From Candidatus Aminicenantota bacterium (GTDB lineage Bacteria; Acidobacteriota; Aminicenantia; Aminicenantales; UBA4085), in the NCBI GenBank assembly GCA_026393865.1, contig JAPKZI010000025.1, positions 1 to 44,295 on the forward strand: 44,295 nucleotides of DNA, read 5' to 3'. Below the pieces are notes generated by a model. It searched no databases. It was not told the DNA's origin and saw only the letters and a program-made list of their open reading frames with translations. Each line of letters starts with the position of its first letter. The stretch's first letter is position 1. Of the stretch, positions 8,967 to 16,743 are shown piece after piece. Position numbers and translations under genes: made by a program.

Positions 8967-10388
8967 TCAGCCCTTCATGACGCCGATGGGAACGACCCGG
9001 GCGACGAGGCGGCCGAGGCCGACCTCATCGGACACCCGGACGACCTCATCGACGTCCTTATACGCAGCGGAAGCTTCCTCGGCGACGCCCTTCCAGTTCG
9101 TGGACCGGAGCTCGATCCCTTTTTTCGCCAGGTCGTCGCGGATCTGCTCTCCGCGGAATCGCCGAACGGCCTCGTGCCGCGACATAATCCGGCCCGCGCC
9201 GTGGGCCGTCGAGCTGAAGCTCAACGCCTCGGCCTCCACCGTCCCCGCCAGGAGATAGGAAGCCGTGCCCATGCTCCCGGGGATGATCACCGGCTGGCCG
9301 ACGGACCTGTAGGCCTCGGGGAGCTCTTTCCTGCCGGGGCCGAAGCTGCGCGTGGCCCCCTTGCGGTGGACGCAGAGCTCCTTCTCCCGGCCGCCGACGG
9401 CGTGCGTCTCGATCTTGGCCACGTTGTGGCAGACGTCATAGATCTGGCCCATTCCCCGTGAGCTCCCGAGGACCTTCTTGAAAACGTCCCTGACCCAGTG
9501 AGCGATCATCTGCCGGTTGGCAAACGCATAGTTGACCGCAGCGCACATCGACCGGTAGTACTCGCGCCCCATCGCCGAGTGGATCGGGGCGTGGATGAGC
9601 TCGCGGTCGGGCAGGCCCGTGACGCCGTACGCGCCCTCCATAGACTGGATATAGTCCGAGGCCACCTGATGGCCCAGGCCGCGGCTTCCGCAGTGGATCA
9701 TGACCAGGATCTGGCCTTCGCCGTCCACGCCGAAAATGTGGGCCGTCTCAGGGTCGAAAATCCGGTCCACCTTCTGGATCTCGAGAAAATGGTTCCCGGA
9801 GCCGAGCGTGCCGAGCTGGGGGATGCCGCGCTCCATCGCCCGGGGCGAAACGCGGCTGCCGTCGGCATCCTTCATCCGGCCTTCCTCCTCGGTCATTCGC
9901 AGGTCGTCGGCCATGCCGTATCCGTTCTCGACGGCCCATTGGGCGCCCTTGACCAGGATCTCCTTGAGAACGCCCACGCTGAGCTTCGTCACCCCGCCCT
10001 TGCCGATCCCGGCCGGGACCTCCTTGAAGATCTCGGCCAGGAGTTCTTTGCGCTTCCCGGCGACGTCCTTCTCCGTGAAGTCCGTCCGGAGGAGGCGGAC
10101 ACCGCAGTTGATGTCGTATCCCACCCCTCCCGGGGAGATGATGCCCTCCTCCAGGTCGAAGGCGGCCACTCCGCCGATCGGAAAGCCGTATCCCTGATGC
10201 GCGTCGGGCATGACGTAGGACATCCGCTGAATGCCCGGGAGGCAGGCTACGTTTTCGGCCTGTTCAAGCGTGGAATCGCCCCGAACCGATTCGAGCAGCT
10301 TGCGCGAGGCGAAGATCCGGGCCGGGACCTTCATCTCGCCGTGCCTCGGGATCTCCCAAGTGTTGTCATCGATCCGCTCCAGTTCCAT
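8967..10388 (-). CDS. rtcB: RNA-splicing ligase RtcB
   Basis: 473 aa. It ligates RNA 2',3'-cyclic phosphate or 3'-phosphate ends to 5'-OH ends using Mn and GTP. Diagnostic blocks are MPDAHQGYGFPIGG, GYDINCGVRLL (metal Cys), LGSGNHFLEIQ, MIHCGSRGLGHQ and the guanylylated His in STAHGAGR. ATG at 10388 is preferred because a GAGGG site sits 6 nt upstream and the family begins near MELERID. A GTG at 10400, overlapping the archease stop, would add four residues. It follows archease directly, its normal activator. Confidence 0.96.
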   Translation of the reverse strand: MELERIDDNTWEIPRHGEMKVPARIFASRKLLESVRGDSTLEQAENVACLPGIQRMSYVMPDAHQGYGFPIGGVAAFDLEEGIISPGGVGYDINCGVRLLRTDFTEKDVAGKRKELLAEIFKEVPAGIGKGGVTKLSVGVLKEILVKGAQWAVENGYGMADDLRMTEEEGRMKDADGSRVSPRAMERGIPQLGTLGSGNHFLEIQKVDRIFDPETAHIFGVDGEGQILVMIHCGSRGLGHQVASDYIQSMEGAYGVTGLPDRELIHAPIHSAMGREYYRSMCAAVNYAFANRQMIAHWVRDVFKKVLGSSRGMGQIYDVCHNVAKIETHAVGGREKELCVHRKGATRSFGPGRKELPEAYRSVGQPVIIPGSMGTASYLLAGTVEAEALSFSSTAHGAGRIMSRHEAVRRFRGEQIRDDLAKKGIELRSTNWKGVAEEASAAYKDVDEVVRVSDEVGLGRLVARVVPIGVMKG

Positions 10389-10396
10389 GATGTCCC

Positions 10397-10822
10397 TCAC
10401 ATATCGACCACGACCTGGATGGTCCAGCCGCCGCAGCCAAGCTCGATCTTCATCTCGTTATACGTGACGGCCTTGACGGCCCCGAAGATTTCGTATCGCC
10501 CGCCCGCCTCGTCCCCCCAGAAGACGGCGCTCAAACGGAAATTTTCTCCGCCGTCTTCGATCTTCAGGTCTTCGACACCGCCGAGAAGGAAATTCTTCGC
10601 GTCAAAGAGATAGATGATCTCCTCCAGGAACTTATAGAGAAGCTGCTCCAGATCACGCCCTTGGACCGCGACCGGATGAGATTGGACGGTCCGGATCGCC
10701 CACCAGTCCCACATGAGCGAGGCCGCGGCCAACGCGGCGTTGGCGAAGGCCTCCTCCCGGGTCGCGCCGAAAGCCCGGAACTTGCCGTCGGCGGTATGCG
10801 GCAATATCCTGTATCTTTCCAT
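10397..10822 (-). CDS. Archease, RtcB activator
   Basis: 141 aa from the ATG at 10822. Archease promotes RtcB guanylylation and turnover. It shows the family start MERYRILPHTADGKFRAFG, the middle block KFLEEIIYLFDAKNF, and the C-terminal VKAVTYNEMKIE with a terminal Asp (VVVDM). The open frame extends 21 codons upstream, but that part crosses the promoter region and has no family similarity. There is no ribosome site; the -10 lies 8 nt before the ATG, so the message looks leaderless. Its stop overlaps the alternative rtcB GTG. Confidence 0.93.
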   Translation of the reverse strand: MERYRILPHTADGKFRAFGATREEAFANAALAAASLMWDWWAIRTVQSHPVAVQGRDLEQLLYKFLEEIIYLFDAKNFLLGGVEDLKIEDGGENFRLSAVFWGDEAGGRYEIFGAVKAVTYNEMKIELGCGGWTIQVVVDM

Positions 10823-10830
10823 TTCTAAAT

Positions 10831-10839
10831 AATATAGCA
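10831..10839 (-). promoter_or_regulatory. Extended -10 of the archease-rtcB operon
   Basis: Minus strand TGCTATATT. The hexamer ends 8 nt before the archease ATG, predicting a leader of 2-3 nt. No good -35. The upstream side overlaps the divergent promoter at 10843-10871. Confidence 0.5.
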
Positions 10840-10842
10840 CAA

Positions 10843-10875
10843 TTGACTTCAAAAGAGGCCTTTGATATAAAGGCC
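10843..10875 (+). promoter_or_regulatory. Promoter with a palindrome over the -10, divergent to archease
   Basis: TTGACT (10843-10848), 17-nt spacer, TATAAA (10866-10871) with TG extension at 10863-10864. A perfect inverted repeat GGCCTTT-gatat-AAAGGCC (10857-10875) covers the spacer end and the -10. That is where a repressor would bind, but it could also be chance. Confidence 0.6.
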
Positions 10876-10894
10876 ATAGGATCAAGGTGTTTTA

Positions 10895-12202: not shown

Positions 12203-13213
12203 TCAGAACACTCCTGCGATGATCGTATGGCAATACGGGCAGGCTCCGTCGCAAACCCGGTTCTCCTCGACCTGGAATCCCCGTCTCTGAATGAGCGGCC
12301 GGAAGCACTGAGGACAATAGGTGATATCCCCCTCTCCCGAGACGTTGCCGATATAGACGTAGCGAAGGTCCGCTCTCTTTCCGATGGCGAACGCCCGACG
12401 CAGCGTATCGACCGGAGTCGGGCCCGCTTCGGTATACTTGAAATCCGGATGGAACCGGCTGATATGCCAGGGCATATCGGGATCGACGCCGGCCATAAAC
12501 CGGGCGATGTCATCGAGCTCCGCGTCGCCGTCGTTCAGCCCGGGTACGACCAGCGTCGTCACCTCGACCCAGATACCGAGCCGGCGCATCCGGCGGATGG
12601 AATCGAGGACGGGCTCCAACCGCGCCCCACAGACCTTTTTATAAGTCTCCTCGCGGAAGGCCTTAAGATCCACATTGGCCGCGTCGAGAAACGGCCGGAT
12701 GGTTTCGAGGGCCTCGGCCGTCATGAAGCCGTTGGTCACGAAATTGTTGGCTAGGCCCGCTTCATGGGCGAGCTTGGCCGTGTCATAGGCATATTCGAAA
12801 AAAATCGTGGGTTCGGTGTACGTATAGGAGATGCTCCGGCACCCCCGGTCCAGGGCGATCCGGACGATATTCTCAGGCGAAAGTTCTTCGCCGCGATCGG
12901 CCGCCCGGCCTTTCTTGGCCGCCTGGCTGATCTGCCAGTTCTGGCAGAAGGGACAGCGAAAATTGCAGCCGGCCGTGGCGATCGAGAACGACGTCGATCC
13001 GGGCCAAAAATGGAAGAAAGGTTTTTTTTCGATGGGATCGACATGGGCGGCGATGACTTCGCCGTAAACATGGGTCATGAGCCGGCCGCCGCGGTTTTCC
13101 CGGACACCGCAGACGCCGAATTTGCCGGGCGCGATGTCGCAGCGGTGGGAACAGAGGGCGCACACGGTCCGCCCGCCGCCGAAAGCCTTGTAAAGCATCG
13201 CCTCTCTGATCAT
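12203..13213 (-). CDS. AmrS-like radical SAM protein (AmmeMemoRadiSam system; PflA-like)
   Basis: 336 aa. The SAM-binding cluster motif is CNFRCPFC (CxxxCxxC) after SIATAG, with the N-terminal Cys-rich block CALCSHRCDIAPGKFGVC typical of AmrS. YTYTEPTIFFEYAYD and FHPDFKYTEAGPTP are also family hallmarks, and a C-terminal CxxC pair is present. The substrate is unknown; AmrS usually accompanies AmrA and AmrB, not seen here. ATG 13213 fits the family start (MIREAMLY). ATG 13198 has a better ribosome site (AGAGAGG) and is an alternative. Confidence 0.9.
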   Translation of the reverse strand: MIREAMLYKAFGGGRTVCALCSHRCDIAPGKFGVCGVRENRGGRLMTHVYGEVIAAHVDPIEKKPFFHFWPGSTSFSIATAGCNFRCPFCQNWQISQAAKKGRAADRGEELSPENIVRIALDRGCRSISYTYTEPTIFFEYAYDTAKLAHEAGLANNFVTNGFMTAEALETIRPFLDAANVDLKAFREETYKKVCGARLEPVLDSIRRMRRLGIWVEVTTLVVPGLNDGDAELDDIARFMAGVDPDMPWHISRFHPDFKYTEAGPTPVDTLRRAFAIGKRADLRYVYIGNVSGEGDITYCPQCFRPLIQRRGFQVEENRVCDGACPYCHTIIAGVF

Positions 13214-13237
13214 GATCGTACCCGGATCCCCACGGCC

Positions 13238-13266
13238 ATTATAAAAGATGACGGAGGAAGACTCAA
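13238..13266 (-). promoter_or_regulatory. Promoter of the AmrS-like gene
   Basis: Minus strand TTGAGT (13261-13266), 17-nt spacer, TATAAT (13238-13243). Predicted start near 13231. It lies between the nth stop and the AmrS-like start, so this gene can be transcribed separately from nth. Confidence 0.7.
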
Positions 13267-13297
13267 TCGACGGAGGCGCCCGGGACCGCCGCGGCAA

Positions 13298-13933
13298 TCA
13301 CAGACAGGCGGAGGGACAGAGCTTGGCCAGTTTGCACTCCGGGCATTTCGGCTTGCGCGCCCGGCAAACCCGGCGGCCGTGGTTCACCAGCAGGTAATTG
13401 AAATCGAGCCAGTCCTCCTTGGGGACGATCGTCAACAGGTCCCGCTCGATCTTTTCGGGGTCTTCCTGCCGGCTCAGGCCGAGCCGGCCCGAGAGACGCT
13501 TGACGTGGACGTCCACCGCGATCCCTTCCGCCTTGCCGTAGGCCGAGGAAAGAACGATATTGGCCGTTTTGCGGGCGACCCCGGGCAGGGTGATGAGCTC
13601 GGCCATGGTCTCCGGCACCCGCCCGCCGAAATCGCCGACTATCTTGGAAGCGGCGCCGATGATGCTCTTGGCCTTGTTCCGGAAAAAACCCGTCGGGCGG
13701 ACGTCCCTCTCGAGCTCGGCCCGGTCCGCCGCGGCAAAAGCGGCGGCGTCCGGATACTTCTTGAAGAGGGCCGGAGTGAGCTTATTGACCCGCTCGTCGG
13801 TGCACTGGGCGCTGAGGATCGTGGCCACCAGGATTTGGAGGGGAGTTTCGAATGTGAGGGCGGTGCGGCTTTGGGGGTATTCCTTCTCCAGAATGCGGAT
13901 GATCTTGACGACGCGGTCCTTCGCAGGTTTCAT
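13298..13933 (-). CDS. nth: Endonuclease III (DNA glycosylase/AP lyase)
   Basis: 211 aa. It removes oxidised pyrimidines in base excision repair. The helix-hairpin-helix holds the catalytic Lys (LPGVARKTANIVL), and the catalytic Asp is in VDVHVKRLSGRLG. The C-terminal 4Fe-4S cluster has the canonical CxxxxxxCxxCxxxxxC spacing (CRARKPKCPECKLAKLC). A TTAGGAG ribosome site precedes the ATG. The upstream sequence is a repeat element that may supply its promoter: TATGAT on the minus strand at 13965-13970, weak -35. Confidence 0.96.
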   Translation of the reverse strand: MKPAKDRVVKIIRILEKEYPQSRTALTFETPLQILVATILSAQCTDERVNKLTPALFKKYPDAAAFAAADRAELERDVRPTGFFRNKAKSIIGAASKIVGDFGGRVPETMAELITLPGVARKTANIVLSSAYGKAEGIAVDVHVKRLSGRLGLSRQEDPEKIERDLLTIVPKEDWLDFNYLLVNHGRRVCRARKPKCPECKLAKLCPSACL

Positions 13934-14050: not shown

Positions 14051-14968
14051 CTATAATTTGACCATCTTTTCGATCGCTCCCCGGGCCCGATCGGCGATCT
14101 CGGGAGGGACCTGAACGCGATGGACCATCTGTTCCAAGGCAAGAGCGACTTTCTTCAAAGTGATCTTTTTCATGTTGGCGCAGAAGGCCAGGTCGTGGGC
14201 GGGATAGAAATCCTTCTCCGGGTTGTCCTTCTTCAGTCGGTAGATGATCCCGGATTCGGTGGCGATGATGATCTCTCCGGCCTCGGTCGTCCGAGCCTCC
14301 TTGACCATCTTGCCCGTGGACAGGACTTTGTCGGCCAGGTCGATGACCTCGGGCCGGCATTCGGGATGGGCCCAGACGACGGCGTCCGGATGGGCCTTCT
14401 TCTTCTCGCGGATGTCGCGGGCGAGGATGTTGTTGTGGACGTAGCAATAGCCGTCCCAGGGGATGATCTTTTTGCTCGACCCGCGGGCGACGTATGCCGC
14501 CAGATTCTTGTCCGGGGCAAAGAGGACCTCGCCCCCCGCGAGGCTCTCGACCACGCGGACCGCGTTGGACGAGGTGCAGCAGATATCGCACTCGGCCTTG
14601 ACCTCGGCCGAGGTGTTGACGTAGCAGACGACCGGCCGGCCGGGATACCGGTTCTTCCAGGCGACGAGCTCCGCGGCCGTGATCATGTCGGCCATGGGAC
14701 ACCCGGCCTGCGGGTCGGGGATGAGGACGGTCTTCCGGGGGGAAAGAATGGAGGCGGTCTCGGCCATGAAATGGACGCCGCAGAAAACGATGACGTCTTC
14801 CGTCGCGGCCGCCGCCTTCTGGCTCAGCTCCAGGGAATCTCCGATGAAATCGGCGATGTCCTGAACCTCGCCGATCTGATAGTTATGGGCCAGGATGACG
14901 GCGTTCCGCGCCGTCTTGAGTTCCCGGATCCTGGCCGAGAGCTCGTCCCTGTTCAGGTCCTCGATCAT
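14051..14968 (-). CDS. nadA: Quinolinate synthase
   Basis: 305 aa, the first committed enzyme with NadB for NAD synthesis. It condenses iminoaspartate with DHAP on a 4Fe-4S cluster. Cluster Cys lie in IVFCGVHFMAETA, CDICCTSSNAV and LAFCANMKKITL. AHNYQIGEVQDIADFIGDS is the usual N-terminal signature. It follows the Fe-S assembly genes by 6 nt, which suits an Fe-S client. nadB and nadC are not in the window. Confidence 0.95.
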   Translation of the reverse strand: MIEDLNRDELSARIRELKTARNAVILAHNYQIGEVQDIADFIGDSLELSQKAAAATEDVIVFCGVHFMAETASILSPRKTVLIPDPQAGCPMADMITAAELVAWKNRYPGRPVVCYVNTSAEVKAECDICCTSSNAVRVVESLAGGEVLFAPDKNLAAYVARGSSKKIIPWDGYCYVHNNILARDIREKKKAHPDAVVWAHPECRPEVIDLADKVLSTGKMVKEARTTEAGEIIIATESGIIYRLKKDNPEKDFYPAHDLAFCANMKKITLKKVALALEQMVHRVQVPPEIADRARGAIEKMVKL

Positions 14969-14974
14969 GGTCCC

Positions 14975-15565
14975 CTATTTCGCGATCTTGGCGCCGCAGG
15001 AGGCGCAGGCGGCGTCGGCCTTATTCGTGTATTTCCCGCACTCCGGGCATTCGACGAAATCGATATCGCAGTGGCGGCAGGAGCAGACCTCTTTCAGGCC
15101 CTCGAGAGGTCCCTCGCAGTAGGGGCAGGAGCAGATCTCCTCGTGTTCGTCGTGGACATGGGCGGGAGCCGCCGCGGCCGCGTCCCGAACGCCGGGCGCG
15201 CTTTTGCGGCGGAAGTCCTTGATGGCCTCGTGGAGGGCGTCCGCGCCGAGATTGGAGCAGTGCATCTTGTTCTTGGGCAGTCCGCCGAGCTCCTCGGCCA
15301 CTTTGTCGTTGGTGATGGCCATGGCCTCGTCCAGCGTTTTGCCCAAAGCCATTTCCGAGACCATGCTCGACACGGCGATGGCCGCGCCGCAGCCGAAGGT
15401 CTGGAACTTGATATCGGACAGGCGGCCGTCCTTGACCTTGATGTAAAACGCCATCATATCGCCGCAGACGGGGTTGCCGACCTGGCCGACCCCGTCGGCA
15501 TCGGGCAGGGTGCCCACGTTGCGCGGATTGGCAAAATGGTCCATGACCTTATCGGAGTAGATCAT
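14975..15565 (-). CDS. NifU/IscU-type Fe-S scaffold with an added Cys-rich (zinc-ribbon-like) C-terminus
   Basis: 196 aa. Residues 1-125 are an IscU/NifU-N scaffold with the three cluster Cys: GNPVCGD, FQTFGCGAAIA and KMHCSNLGADA. After an Ala-rich linker with HVHDEHEE, the C-terminal 60 residues carry CSCPYC, CSCRHC, CPEC and CASC, ending CGAKIAK. This resembles one or two zinc ribbons. IscU is normally about 130 aa, so the tail is an extra domain. Its ATG overlaps the NifS-like stop (ATGA), so the two are coupled. The function of the tail is unknown. Confidence 0.9.
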   Translation of the reverse strand: MIYSDKVMDHFANPRNVGTLPDADGVGQVGNPVCGDMMAFYIKVKDGRLSDIKFQTFGCGAAIAVSSMVSEMALGKTLDEAMAITNDKVAEELGGLPKNKMHCSNLGADALHEAIKDFRRKSAPGVRDAAAAAPAHVHDEHEEICSCPYCEGPLEGLKEVCSCRHCDIDFVECPECGKYTNKADAACASCGAKIAK

Positions 15566-16743
15566 TGGTGGTTCTCCTTAAGATAGGCCGTGTAAAGCGG
15601 AGACATCTTCCGCAGGCGCTCGATGATCGGCGGGAAGGACTCGAGCACAATGTCGATATCCTCAGCCGTGGTGCCCTCGAGAAGGCTGAAAACGACGGAC
15701 CCTTGAGCGGTGGCGTGGTCCAACCCCATGGCCAGGAGGACGTGGGACGCTTTGAGCGCCTTGGACGAACAAGCCGAACCGCTCGAGACCGCGATCCCCT
15801 TCATATCGAGGCTGAGAAGCATCGCCTCGCCCTCGACGAACTGGACGCAGAAGCTCGCGTGGTGCGGCAAGCGGCCGTCCCGCGGCCCGGTCAGCAGAAT
15901 GTGGTCGACCCTTCGGGTCAGACCGTCGATCAGCCGATCGCGGAGGGCCTGGGCCTTCGCCTCTCTCTCTGCCCGCCGGGCCAAGGCGATCTCGGCCGCT
16001 TTGCCCAGGCCGACGATGGCCGCGACATTTTCCGTTCCGCCGCGACGGCCGTCTTCCTGGATCCCCCCGTCGATTTGGGGCAGAAGGCGGGTTCCTTTTT
16101 TCAAATAAAGCGCGGCGCCGCCTTTGGGCCCGTAAAACTGATCGCCGGCGAGGCTCAGGGCGTCCACTCCCAGCCTCTGGATGTCGATGGGGAGGCTGCC
16201 GGCGGCGGCCACGGCGTCCGTGTGGAAGGGGACGCTCTTGGCCCGGCAGAGCTTGGCGATCTCGGCCACGGGCTCGATCGCGCCGACCTCGGAATTGGCC
16301 AGCATGACCGAGACGAGAACCGTTTCCTTTGTCAGCGCCTGCTCCACGGACTCCGGACGGACTGTGCCGGCCCCGTCCACGGGGACGAGCGTCGATCGGA
16401 AGCCGAACTTTTCGAGGCTCTTCGCCGCGTTGAGAACGGACAGGTGTTCGACGGCCGAAAGGACGAGATGGGTTCCCTTGGCCCGGCCGGCCAGGGCCAG
16501 GCCTTTGACCGCCAGATTGTTCGATTCGGACCCGCTCGAGGTAAAGATGACCTCGGCGGCCGTCGCGCCGATCAGCCGGGCCACCTGGCCGCGGGCCCCC
16601 TCGACGGCCTCGAGGACCGTCTGGCCCTCGCCGTGGAGGCTCTGCGGATTCCCGAAGCGCTCCTTTAAGAACGGCAGCATGGCCGCCAACGCGTCGGGGT
16701 GGAGGGGTGTGGCGGCGATGTGGTCGAGATAGATTCTCCGCAT
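15562..16743 (-). CDS. NifS/IscS-like cysteine desulfurase homologue lacking the PLP lysine
   Basis: 393 aa from ATG 16743 (GAAGG 8 nt upstream; a TTG at 16758 is poorer). Full-length class V fold aligned to E. coli IscS from memory. Kept: SSGSACSS persulfide loop with the catalytic Cys, His in AVEHLSVL, Asp in HTDAV, and RRGGTENV. Changed: the SGHK-x-x-GPKG block reads AGDQFYGPKG, so the Schiff-base Lys is Gln and the preceding His is Asp. The PLP-stacking/contact residues corresponding to N155 and Q183 are Ser and Ala. It sits between nfu and nifU. It is probably inactive as a classic PLP desulfurase or does another job. Confidence 0.88.
   Translation of the reverse strand: MRRIYLDHIAATPLHPDALAAMLPFLKERFGNPQSLHGEGQTVLEAVEGARGQVARLIGATAAEVIFTSSGSESNNLAVKGLALAGRAKGTHLVLSAVEHLSVLNAAKSLEKFGFRSTLVPVDGAGTVRPESVEQALTKETVLVSVMLANSEVGAIEPVAEIAKLCRAKSVPFHTDAVAAAGSLPIDIQRLGVDALSLAGDQFYGPKGGAALYLKKGTRLLPQIDGGIQEDGRRGGTENVAAIVGLGKAAEIALARRAEREAKAQALRDRLIDGLTRRVDHILLTGPRDGRLPHHASFCVQFVEGEAMLLSLDMKGIAVSSGSACSSKALKASHVLLAMGLDHATAQGSVVFSLLEGTTAEDIDIVLESFPPIIERLRKMSPLYTAYLKENHQ

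Follow-up and report, generated by a model that had tools for sequence, protein, structure and literature searches.

A NifS/IscS-like protein without the PLP lysine, conserved beside the NifU scaffold in Aminicenantales, as a candidate non-desulfurating scaffold partner

Results

The stretch of DNA analyzed here (the window, 44,295 nucleotides) carries a gene for a NifS/IscS-like protein in which the lysine expected to bind pyridoxal phosphate (PLP) is missing. The gene lies between an nfu-type gene and a nifU gene, which is followed by nadA, all on the minus strand (Table 1). This neighborhood, with nifU called modified, had been described correctly in the original prediction, which did not give the strand; the NifU protein has a cysteine-rich tail. 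The arrangement nfu, lysine-less nifS, nifU and nadA is an operon conserved throughout the order Aminicenantales. On the same strand nadA is followed by an endonuclease III-like gene and one for a radical SAM protein; the products of the two are likely Fe-S clients. The window also holds a pair of overlapping RtcB RNA ligase and archease genes.

Table 1. Positions of the genes and sequence elements in the window
Feature	Position	Strand	Remarks
RtcB RNA ligase and archease genes	8967-10885	(-)	four-base overlap
Endonuclease III-like and radical SAM genes	12203-13933	(-)
nadA, quinolinate synthase, Fe-S client enzyme	14051..14968	(-)	PF02445; conserved downstream neighbor in the order
IscU/NifU scaffold, 196 aa	14975..15565	(-)	NifU_N; 15562-15565 (four bases) shared with the end of the NifS-like gene
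C-terminal tail of NifU	14978-15127	(-)	four CxxC knuckles
Lysine-less NifS/IscS-like gene	15562..16743	(-)	ATG 16743, stop 15562; 393 aa + stop
Active-site loop codons, residues 320-331	15751..15786	(-)	retained; includes Cys325 and the clade-typical basic Lys328 and Lys331
Codon of residue 331	15751-15753	(-)	E. coli Glu334 position
AGDQFYGPKG codons, residues 199-208	16120..16149	(-)	site where the PLP lysine is expected
nfu-type Fe-S carrier (NifU C-terminal-like domain), 73 aa	16783..17004	(-)	PF01106; conserved upstream neighbor in the order

The window protein has an aminotransferase class V domain (PF00266, 222.5 bits) and contains the motifs AGDQFYGPKG, NSEVG, DAVA, EHLS and SSGSACSS. 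Against the NCBIfam NifS/IscS equivalog it scores 466.4 bits with a cut-off of 530.75 bits; since the canonical copy of the same genome also stays below the cut-off (497.5 bits), the NCBIfam cut-offs are not useful as a discriminator. Aligned to E. coli IscS (K-12), whose numbering is used below unless stated otherwise, the protein shows the exchanges T76S, D79N, N155S, Q183A, S203A, H205D, K206Q and R354V, and H104, D180, S326 and C328 are unchanged (Cys325, His100 and Asp176 of the window protein are Cys328, His104 and Asp180 of E. coli IscS). The exchanges at 155, 183, 205 and 206 and the retention of the SSGSACSS loop, His104 and Asp180 had all been recognized correctly before; T76S, D79N, S203A and R354V had been missed. 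Lys206 is the Schiff-base lysine, Gln183 a ligand of PLP and Arg354 the substrate-binding residue; His104 and Asp180 serve PLP catalysis and Asp79 tunes Asp180. Thus of the residues that make a desulfurase Lys206 (Gln), Gln183 (Ala) and Arg354 (Val) are absent, and the cysteine loop SSGSAC(S/T)S, His104 and Asp180 are present. Mutants of E. coli IscS show what such changes can do: K206A and Q183E are inactive as desulfurases and R354K is active, and for K206A, which retains some PLP, a very slow turnover has been speculated (PMC9978102).

Proteins that match the window protein at 51% identity or more were found in 50 of the 59 genomes of the order, and the lysine is gone in every one of these matches whose lysine site was read. 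Among the nine genomes without a close relative several have an Asp-type lysine-less protein (L052-L054) or lysine-bearing ones only (e.g., L048-L051 and L056). The same loss recurs in a 92%-identical ortholog and in many more distant ones, which rules out a single odd genome or a sequencing error, already judged unlikely in the original prediction. Furthermore dN/dS against an ortholog of the same genus is 0.047/0.444, that is about 0.1, and strong purifying selection therefore acts on the lysine-less gene. A decaying duplicate without function would account for the lost catalytic residues, but this explanation, to which we give practically no weight, is rejected by dN/dS and by the conservation of the operon across the order, and it is also at odds with the new invariant residues of the group described below.

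Other arrangements also occur in the order. In G040 the lysine-bearing protein (L056) adjoins NifU and no lysine-less copy was found; this genome belongs to the same genus as carriers of the lysine-less gene and possibly represents a natural swap of the lysine-less for a lysine-bearing protein. In G035 an Asp-type lysine-less protein (L052) occurs with a NifU of 253 aa, and a few kb away on the same contig a lysine-bearing protein is encoded beside nadA.

A scan of named genomes detected lysine-less relatives in Chloroflexota (Dehalococcoidia), Smithella, Nitrospirota, Planctomycetota, Omnitrophota, Margulisbacteria/Saganbacteria, Deltaproteobacteria and Aquificota, and relatives of the Asp type (SSND) in Bathyarchaeota and Hadesarchaea. 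At position 206 the 70 non-Asp members have Gln (55), Arg (5), Leu (4), Pro (2), Ala (2), Met (1) or Ser (1). As to the question raised by the original prediction, whether the Asp-Gln pair is conserved in the lineage, the loss of the lysine is conserved and the residue in its place varies; among the close relatives in the order Gln is the commonest, and Ala, Arg, Pro and Met also occur. Arg354 is replaced by Val, Leu, Ile or Met in all 70 non-Asp members and kept in all but one of 60 lysine-bearing sequences. The exception, L099, has Lys206 but Leu at position 354 and is placed with weak support inside the lysine-less group; judged by its sequence, we propose that it may be a transition or a reversion. 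Gln183 and His205 are mostly lost in the lysine-less clade and Asp79 is Asn in all members; His104 and Asp180 are invariant in the aligned lysine-less members, and Cys328 is invariant in all 79 lysine-less proteins compared. The group also has features of its own, namely an invariant Ser102, an invariant Asn75 and, six residues after the active cysteine, a basic residue at 331 (all three in the numbering of the window protein). At 331 all 70 non-Asp lysine-less proteins have Lys or Arg, as compared to a mostly acidic residue in the lysine-bearing ones.

In an unrooted quick tree two changes between lysine and no lysine suffice, and the Asp-type proteins form a separate clade with a support of 100. 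A single clade of all lysine-less proteins, the Archaeoglobus fulgidus protein included, was not rejected (p-AU 0.68); the log-likelihood of this tree is even higher by 19 than that of the free quick tree, which put two lysine-bearing rows among the lysine-less ones.

These data bear on whether the protein could still be an active enzyme with altered chemistry, the second possibility offered by the original prediction, one that binds PLP either in the absence of a Schiff-base lysine or through a different one and still turns over cysteine or some other substrate. The invariant Asp180 and His104 would fit such an enzyme, as would the residual PLP of the E. coli K206A mutant (PMC9978102) and the PLP drawn for the A. 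fulgidus structure 4EB5 in a figure legend (PMC9769115). However, the alignment contains no lysine that is invariant in the lysine-less clade. Lysine 331 as a replacement for the Schiff-base lysine was rejected on this ground and because Arg is found there in 7% of the proteins. With the substrate-binding arginine lost throughout, Gln183 and His205 lost in most members, Asp79 changed in all, and A. fulgidus IscS reported inactive (PMC7585200), we regard altered PLP chemistry as improbable. The protein could nonetheless still hold PLP or another ligand, given that Asp180 and His104 are kept.

The NifU protein encoded next to the lysine-less gene has kept the cluster residues Cys34, Asp36, Cys59, His102 and Cys103. 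Its C-terminal tail is not recognized by Pfam and contains eight cysteines, which are invariant in 18 orthologs from Aminicenantales; probably the tail is a double zinc ribbon. We considered the cysteine-rich tail as a mark of lysine-less systems and rejected this, since it is mainly a trait of the Aminicenantales and many lysine-less systems elsewhere have a short U protein. The window's genome (86% complete) contains a single NifU_N gene, the one abutting the lysine-less gene, and no SufB/D was found in it. The same holds for the whole family (G000-G011): NifU_N is only found beside the lysine-less gene, once per genome with the exception of G006, which has two lysine-less/NifU pairs, and SufB/D was not found in any of these genomes, most genomes of the survey being drafts. 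In other genomes of the order there is a weak SufB/D-like gene (10 genomes) or a second, SufU-like NifU_N gene (several genomes). The close clustering with genes for Fe-S carriers and clients in one operon would also suit a purely structural or regulatory partner that stabilizes NifU or gates the transfer to Nfu or NadA and has no role as a cysteine ligand. Such a role would not need the cysteine which all 79 lysine-less proteins have in common, and we consider it very improbable.

AlphaFold2 models of both proteins were used for the overall fold only, their confidence being moderate (pLDDT 78-80). The best PDB match of the window protein (pLDDT 79.7) is 4eb5, with a Foldseek TM-score of 0.88-0.91, and for the window NifU (pLDDT 78.2) the top match is chain C of the same entry, the IscU of A. 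fulgidus, with 74% identity over the aligned part. A. fulgidus IscS (IscS2; 4eb5, 4eb7, 4hvk and the D199K mutant 4r5f) is like the window protein in that it has no lysine, has lost Arg354 and has kept the cysteine loop. It partners an IscU, and the window gene adjoins an IscU-type gene with intact cluster ligands. The A. fulgidus protein is described as inactive as a desulfurase through a Lys-to-Asp change and as contributing one of its cysteines to the coordination of the [2Fe-2S] cluster on IscU (PMC7585200); this ligand is named Cys321 (PMC9769115). The two proteins differ at the lysine site (Asp in SSND versus Gln in AGDQ) and share about 45% identity; moreover, A. fulgidus IscS is archaeal and belongs to the separate Asp-type clade, and the window NifU has the zinc-ribbon-like tail in addition.

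Three further systems can be compared. IscS1 of Methanosarcina acetivorans (MA0808) reportedly misses the catalytic lysine and is paired with a long, 24-kDa IscU (PMC7585200); it resembles the window protein in both respects, is archaeal, and is likened here by its published description only. The minimal ISC system MIS (MisS-MisU) likewise has an S gene next to a U gene and lacks chaperones; its S protein, however, is a cysteine desulfurase (PMC12192291), and the window S protein, judged by its residues, would not be one for want of the catalytic lysine. The PDB entry 9wfy, an Aquificaceae 'cysteine desulfurase', is a natural lysine-less protein (TAHLMYGPKG, Arg354 replaced by Val) which groups with the lysine-less proteins; over 389 residues it does not differ from the product of a gene of the Aquificaceae genome G086. 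It has Leu where the window protein has Gln, and its host group is mostly without canonical desulfurase. The entries 9wep, 9wer, 9wew, 9wf8, 9wfb and 9wfe carry canonical residues stepwise at sites of 9wfy including 76, 155, 183, 203, 206 and 354, and by their sequences they would appear to be deliberate restorations. We found no literature on the 9w-series structures or on lysine-less desulfurases in Aminicenantes, most subscription literature lying outside our search.

According to the original prediction the protein might receive its sulfur from another desulfurase, and a second, canonical cysteine desulfurase is indeed encoded in the window's genome, on contig C226. Lysine-bearing IscS proteins (SSHK or SAHK) occur in 20 further Aminicenantales genomes checked. 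The C226 protein has the fold, the cysteine loop, His104 and Asp180 in common with the window protein (44% identity) but unlike it keeps Lys206, Gln183 and Arg354. Judged by eye its gene is surrounded by serA-like and homocysteine-methyltransferase-like genes and has no adjoining scaffold gene; in Aminicenantales the canonical IscS is usually encoded apart from any NifU gene. Since these genomes do contain a canonical IscS, sulfur derived from a desulfurase may be used in this order. The canonical IscS could load Cys325, which then hands the sulfur to NifU, so that the lysine-less protein would be a sulfurtransferase adaptor, and the invariance of the persulfide cysteine is in line with such a relay. 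We know, however, of no precedent for a transfer from one IscS to another, and the distribution of both proteins in other phyla speaks against it as well.

In Aquificaceae the lysine-less protein is present in 24 of 26 genomes and a lysine-bearing NifS-type protein in 3 of 26. Counting matches at E <= 1e-25, several of them on contigs of more than 1 Mb, 21 of the 26 genomes have the lysine-less protein and no lysine-bearing IscS/SufS-type match; other class-V matches were similar to small-molecule aminotransferases in the cases examined. Likewise only the lysine-less protein and no lysine-bearing IscS-type protein was found in the single-contig genome of a member of the Dehalococcoidia (G059), and no lysine-bearing IscS-type protein was found in a member of the Hadesarchaea (G077); both genomes have a SufB/D-like gene. 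Near the lysine-less gene of three Aquificaceae (L226, L230 and L233) there is a Mrp/ApbC-like gene, recognized by eye from the N-terminus, which codes for a putative Fe-S carrier. As no lysine-bearing IscS/SufS-type enzyme was found in most of the sampled Aquificaceae, there is no need for the whole clade to rely on another desulfurase. The relay is therefore an unlikely explanation, albeit the strongest of the alternatives, and supply by another desulfurase is one option only. The Aquificaceae pattern favors a desulfurase-free source of sulfur in that family.

Discussion

Textbook Fe-S biogenesis begins with a PLP enzyme which draws sulfur from cysteine. The protein of the window is probably something else, namely a non-desulfurating IscS which, as partner of the scaffold, donates a cysteine and leaves the sulfur to come in as sulfide or from another protein. 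This agrees with the core of the original prediction, a protein that is no ordinary PLP desulfurase and has kept its persulfide cysteine for a scaffold role, which is well supported by the residue losses, the E. coli IscS mutants and the A. fulgidus precedent. We base our view on the lost residues, their conservation, the selection on the gene, the operon linkage, the status of NifU as the sole scaffold in the family and the resemblance that the two proteins bear to IscS and IscU of A. fulgidus.

From these observations we infer the following course of events. The lysine-less protein would have given up cysteine cleavage yet retained the fold of IscS with its mobile cysteine loop, and as a dimer it would bind the adjacent NifU/IscU. 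Cys325 could then reach the assembly site on NifU and act as an extra ligand for the nascent [2Fe-2S] cluster, or as a transient carrier of sulfur, in the way of the A. fulgidus IscS-IscU complex. Sulfur might enter as free sulfide in the anaerobic cell or be delivered by another protein, for example the separate canonical IscS. Direct use of sulfide appears at least as likely as supply by another desulfurase; in anaerobic E. coli without IscS, H2S feeds cluster assembly on IscU (PMC13015791).

The lysine-less IscS as a kind is already known from A. fulgidus. As far as the sources searched show, the broad bacterial Gln-type branch, its partnership with the only scaffold of a bacterial family and the desulfurase-poor pattern of the Aquificaceae are new. 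Tentatively, and with somewhat more doubt than confidence, we suggest a widespread bacterial and archaeal mode of Fe-S assembly in which sulfide supplies the sulfur and IscS has permanently become a co-scaffold. Whole groups, such as the family of the window and most Aquificaceae, might then have their main or sole scaffold served by a protein unable to release sulfur from cysteine, and some of these organisms might do without any cysteine desulfurase.

If the scaffold partner in these large, mostly anaerobic groups cannot desulfurate, their sulfur must have another source, probably sulfide. The cysteine loop of IscS would then have a role of its own in cluster building, and the annotation 'cysteine desulfurase' would be wrong in many genomes. 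The lysine-less clade would thus be a natural separation of the two roles of IscS, and sister genomes with lysine-less and lysine-bearing proteins offer contrasts for testing it.
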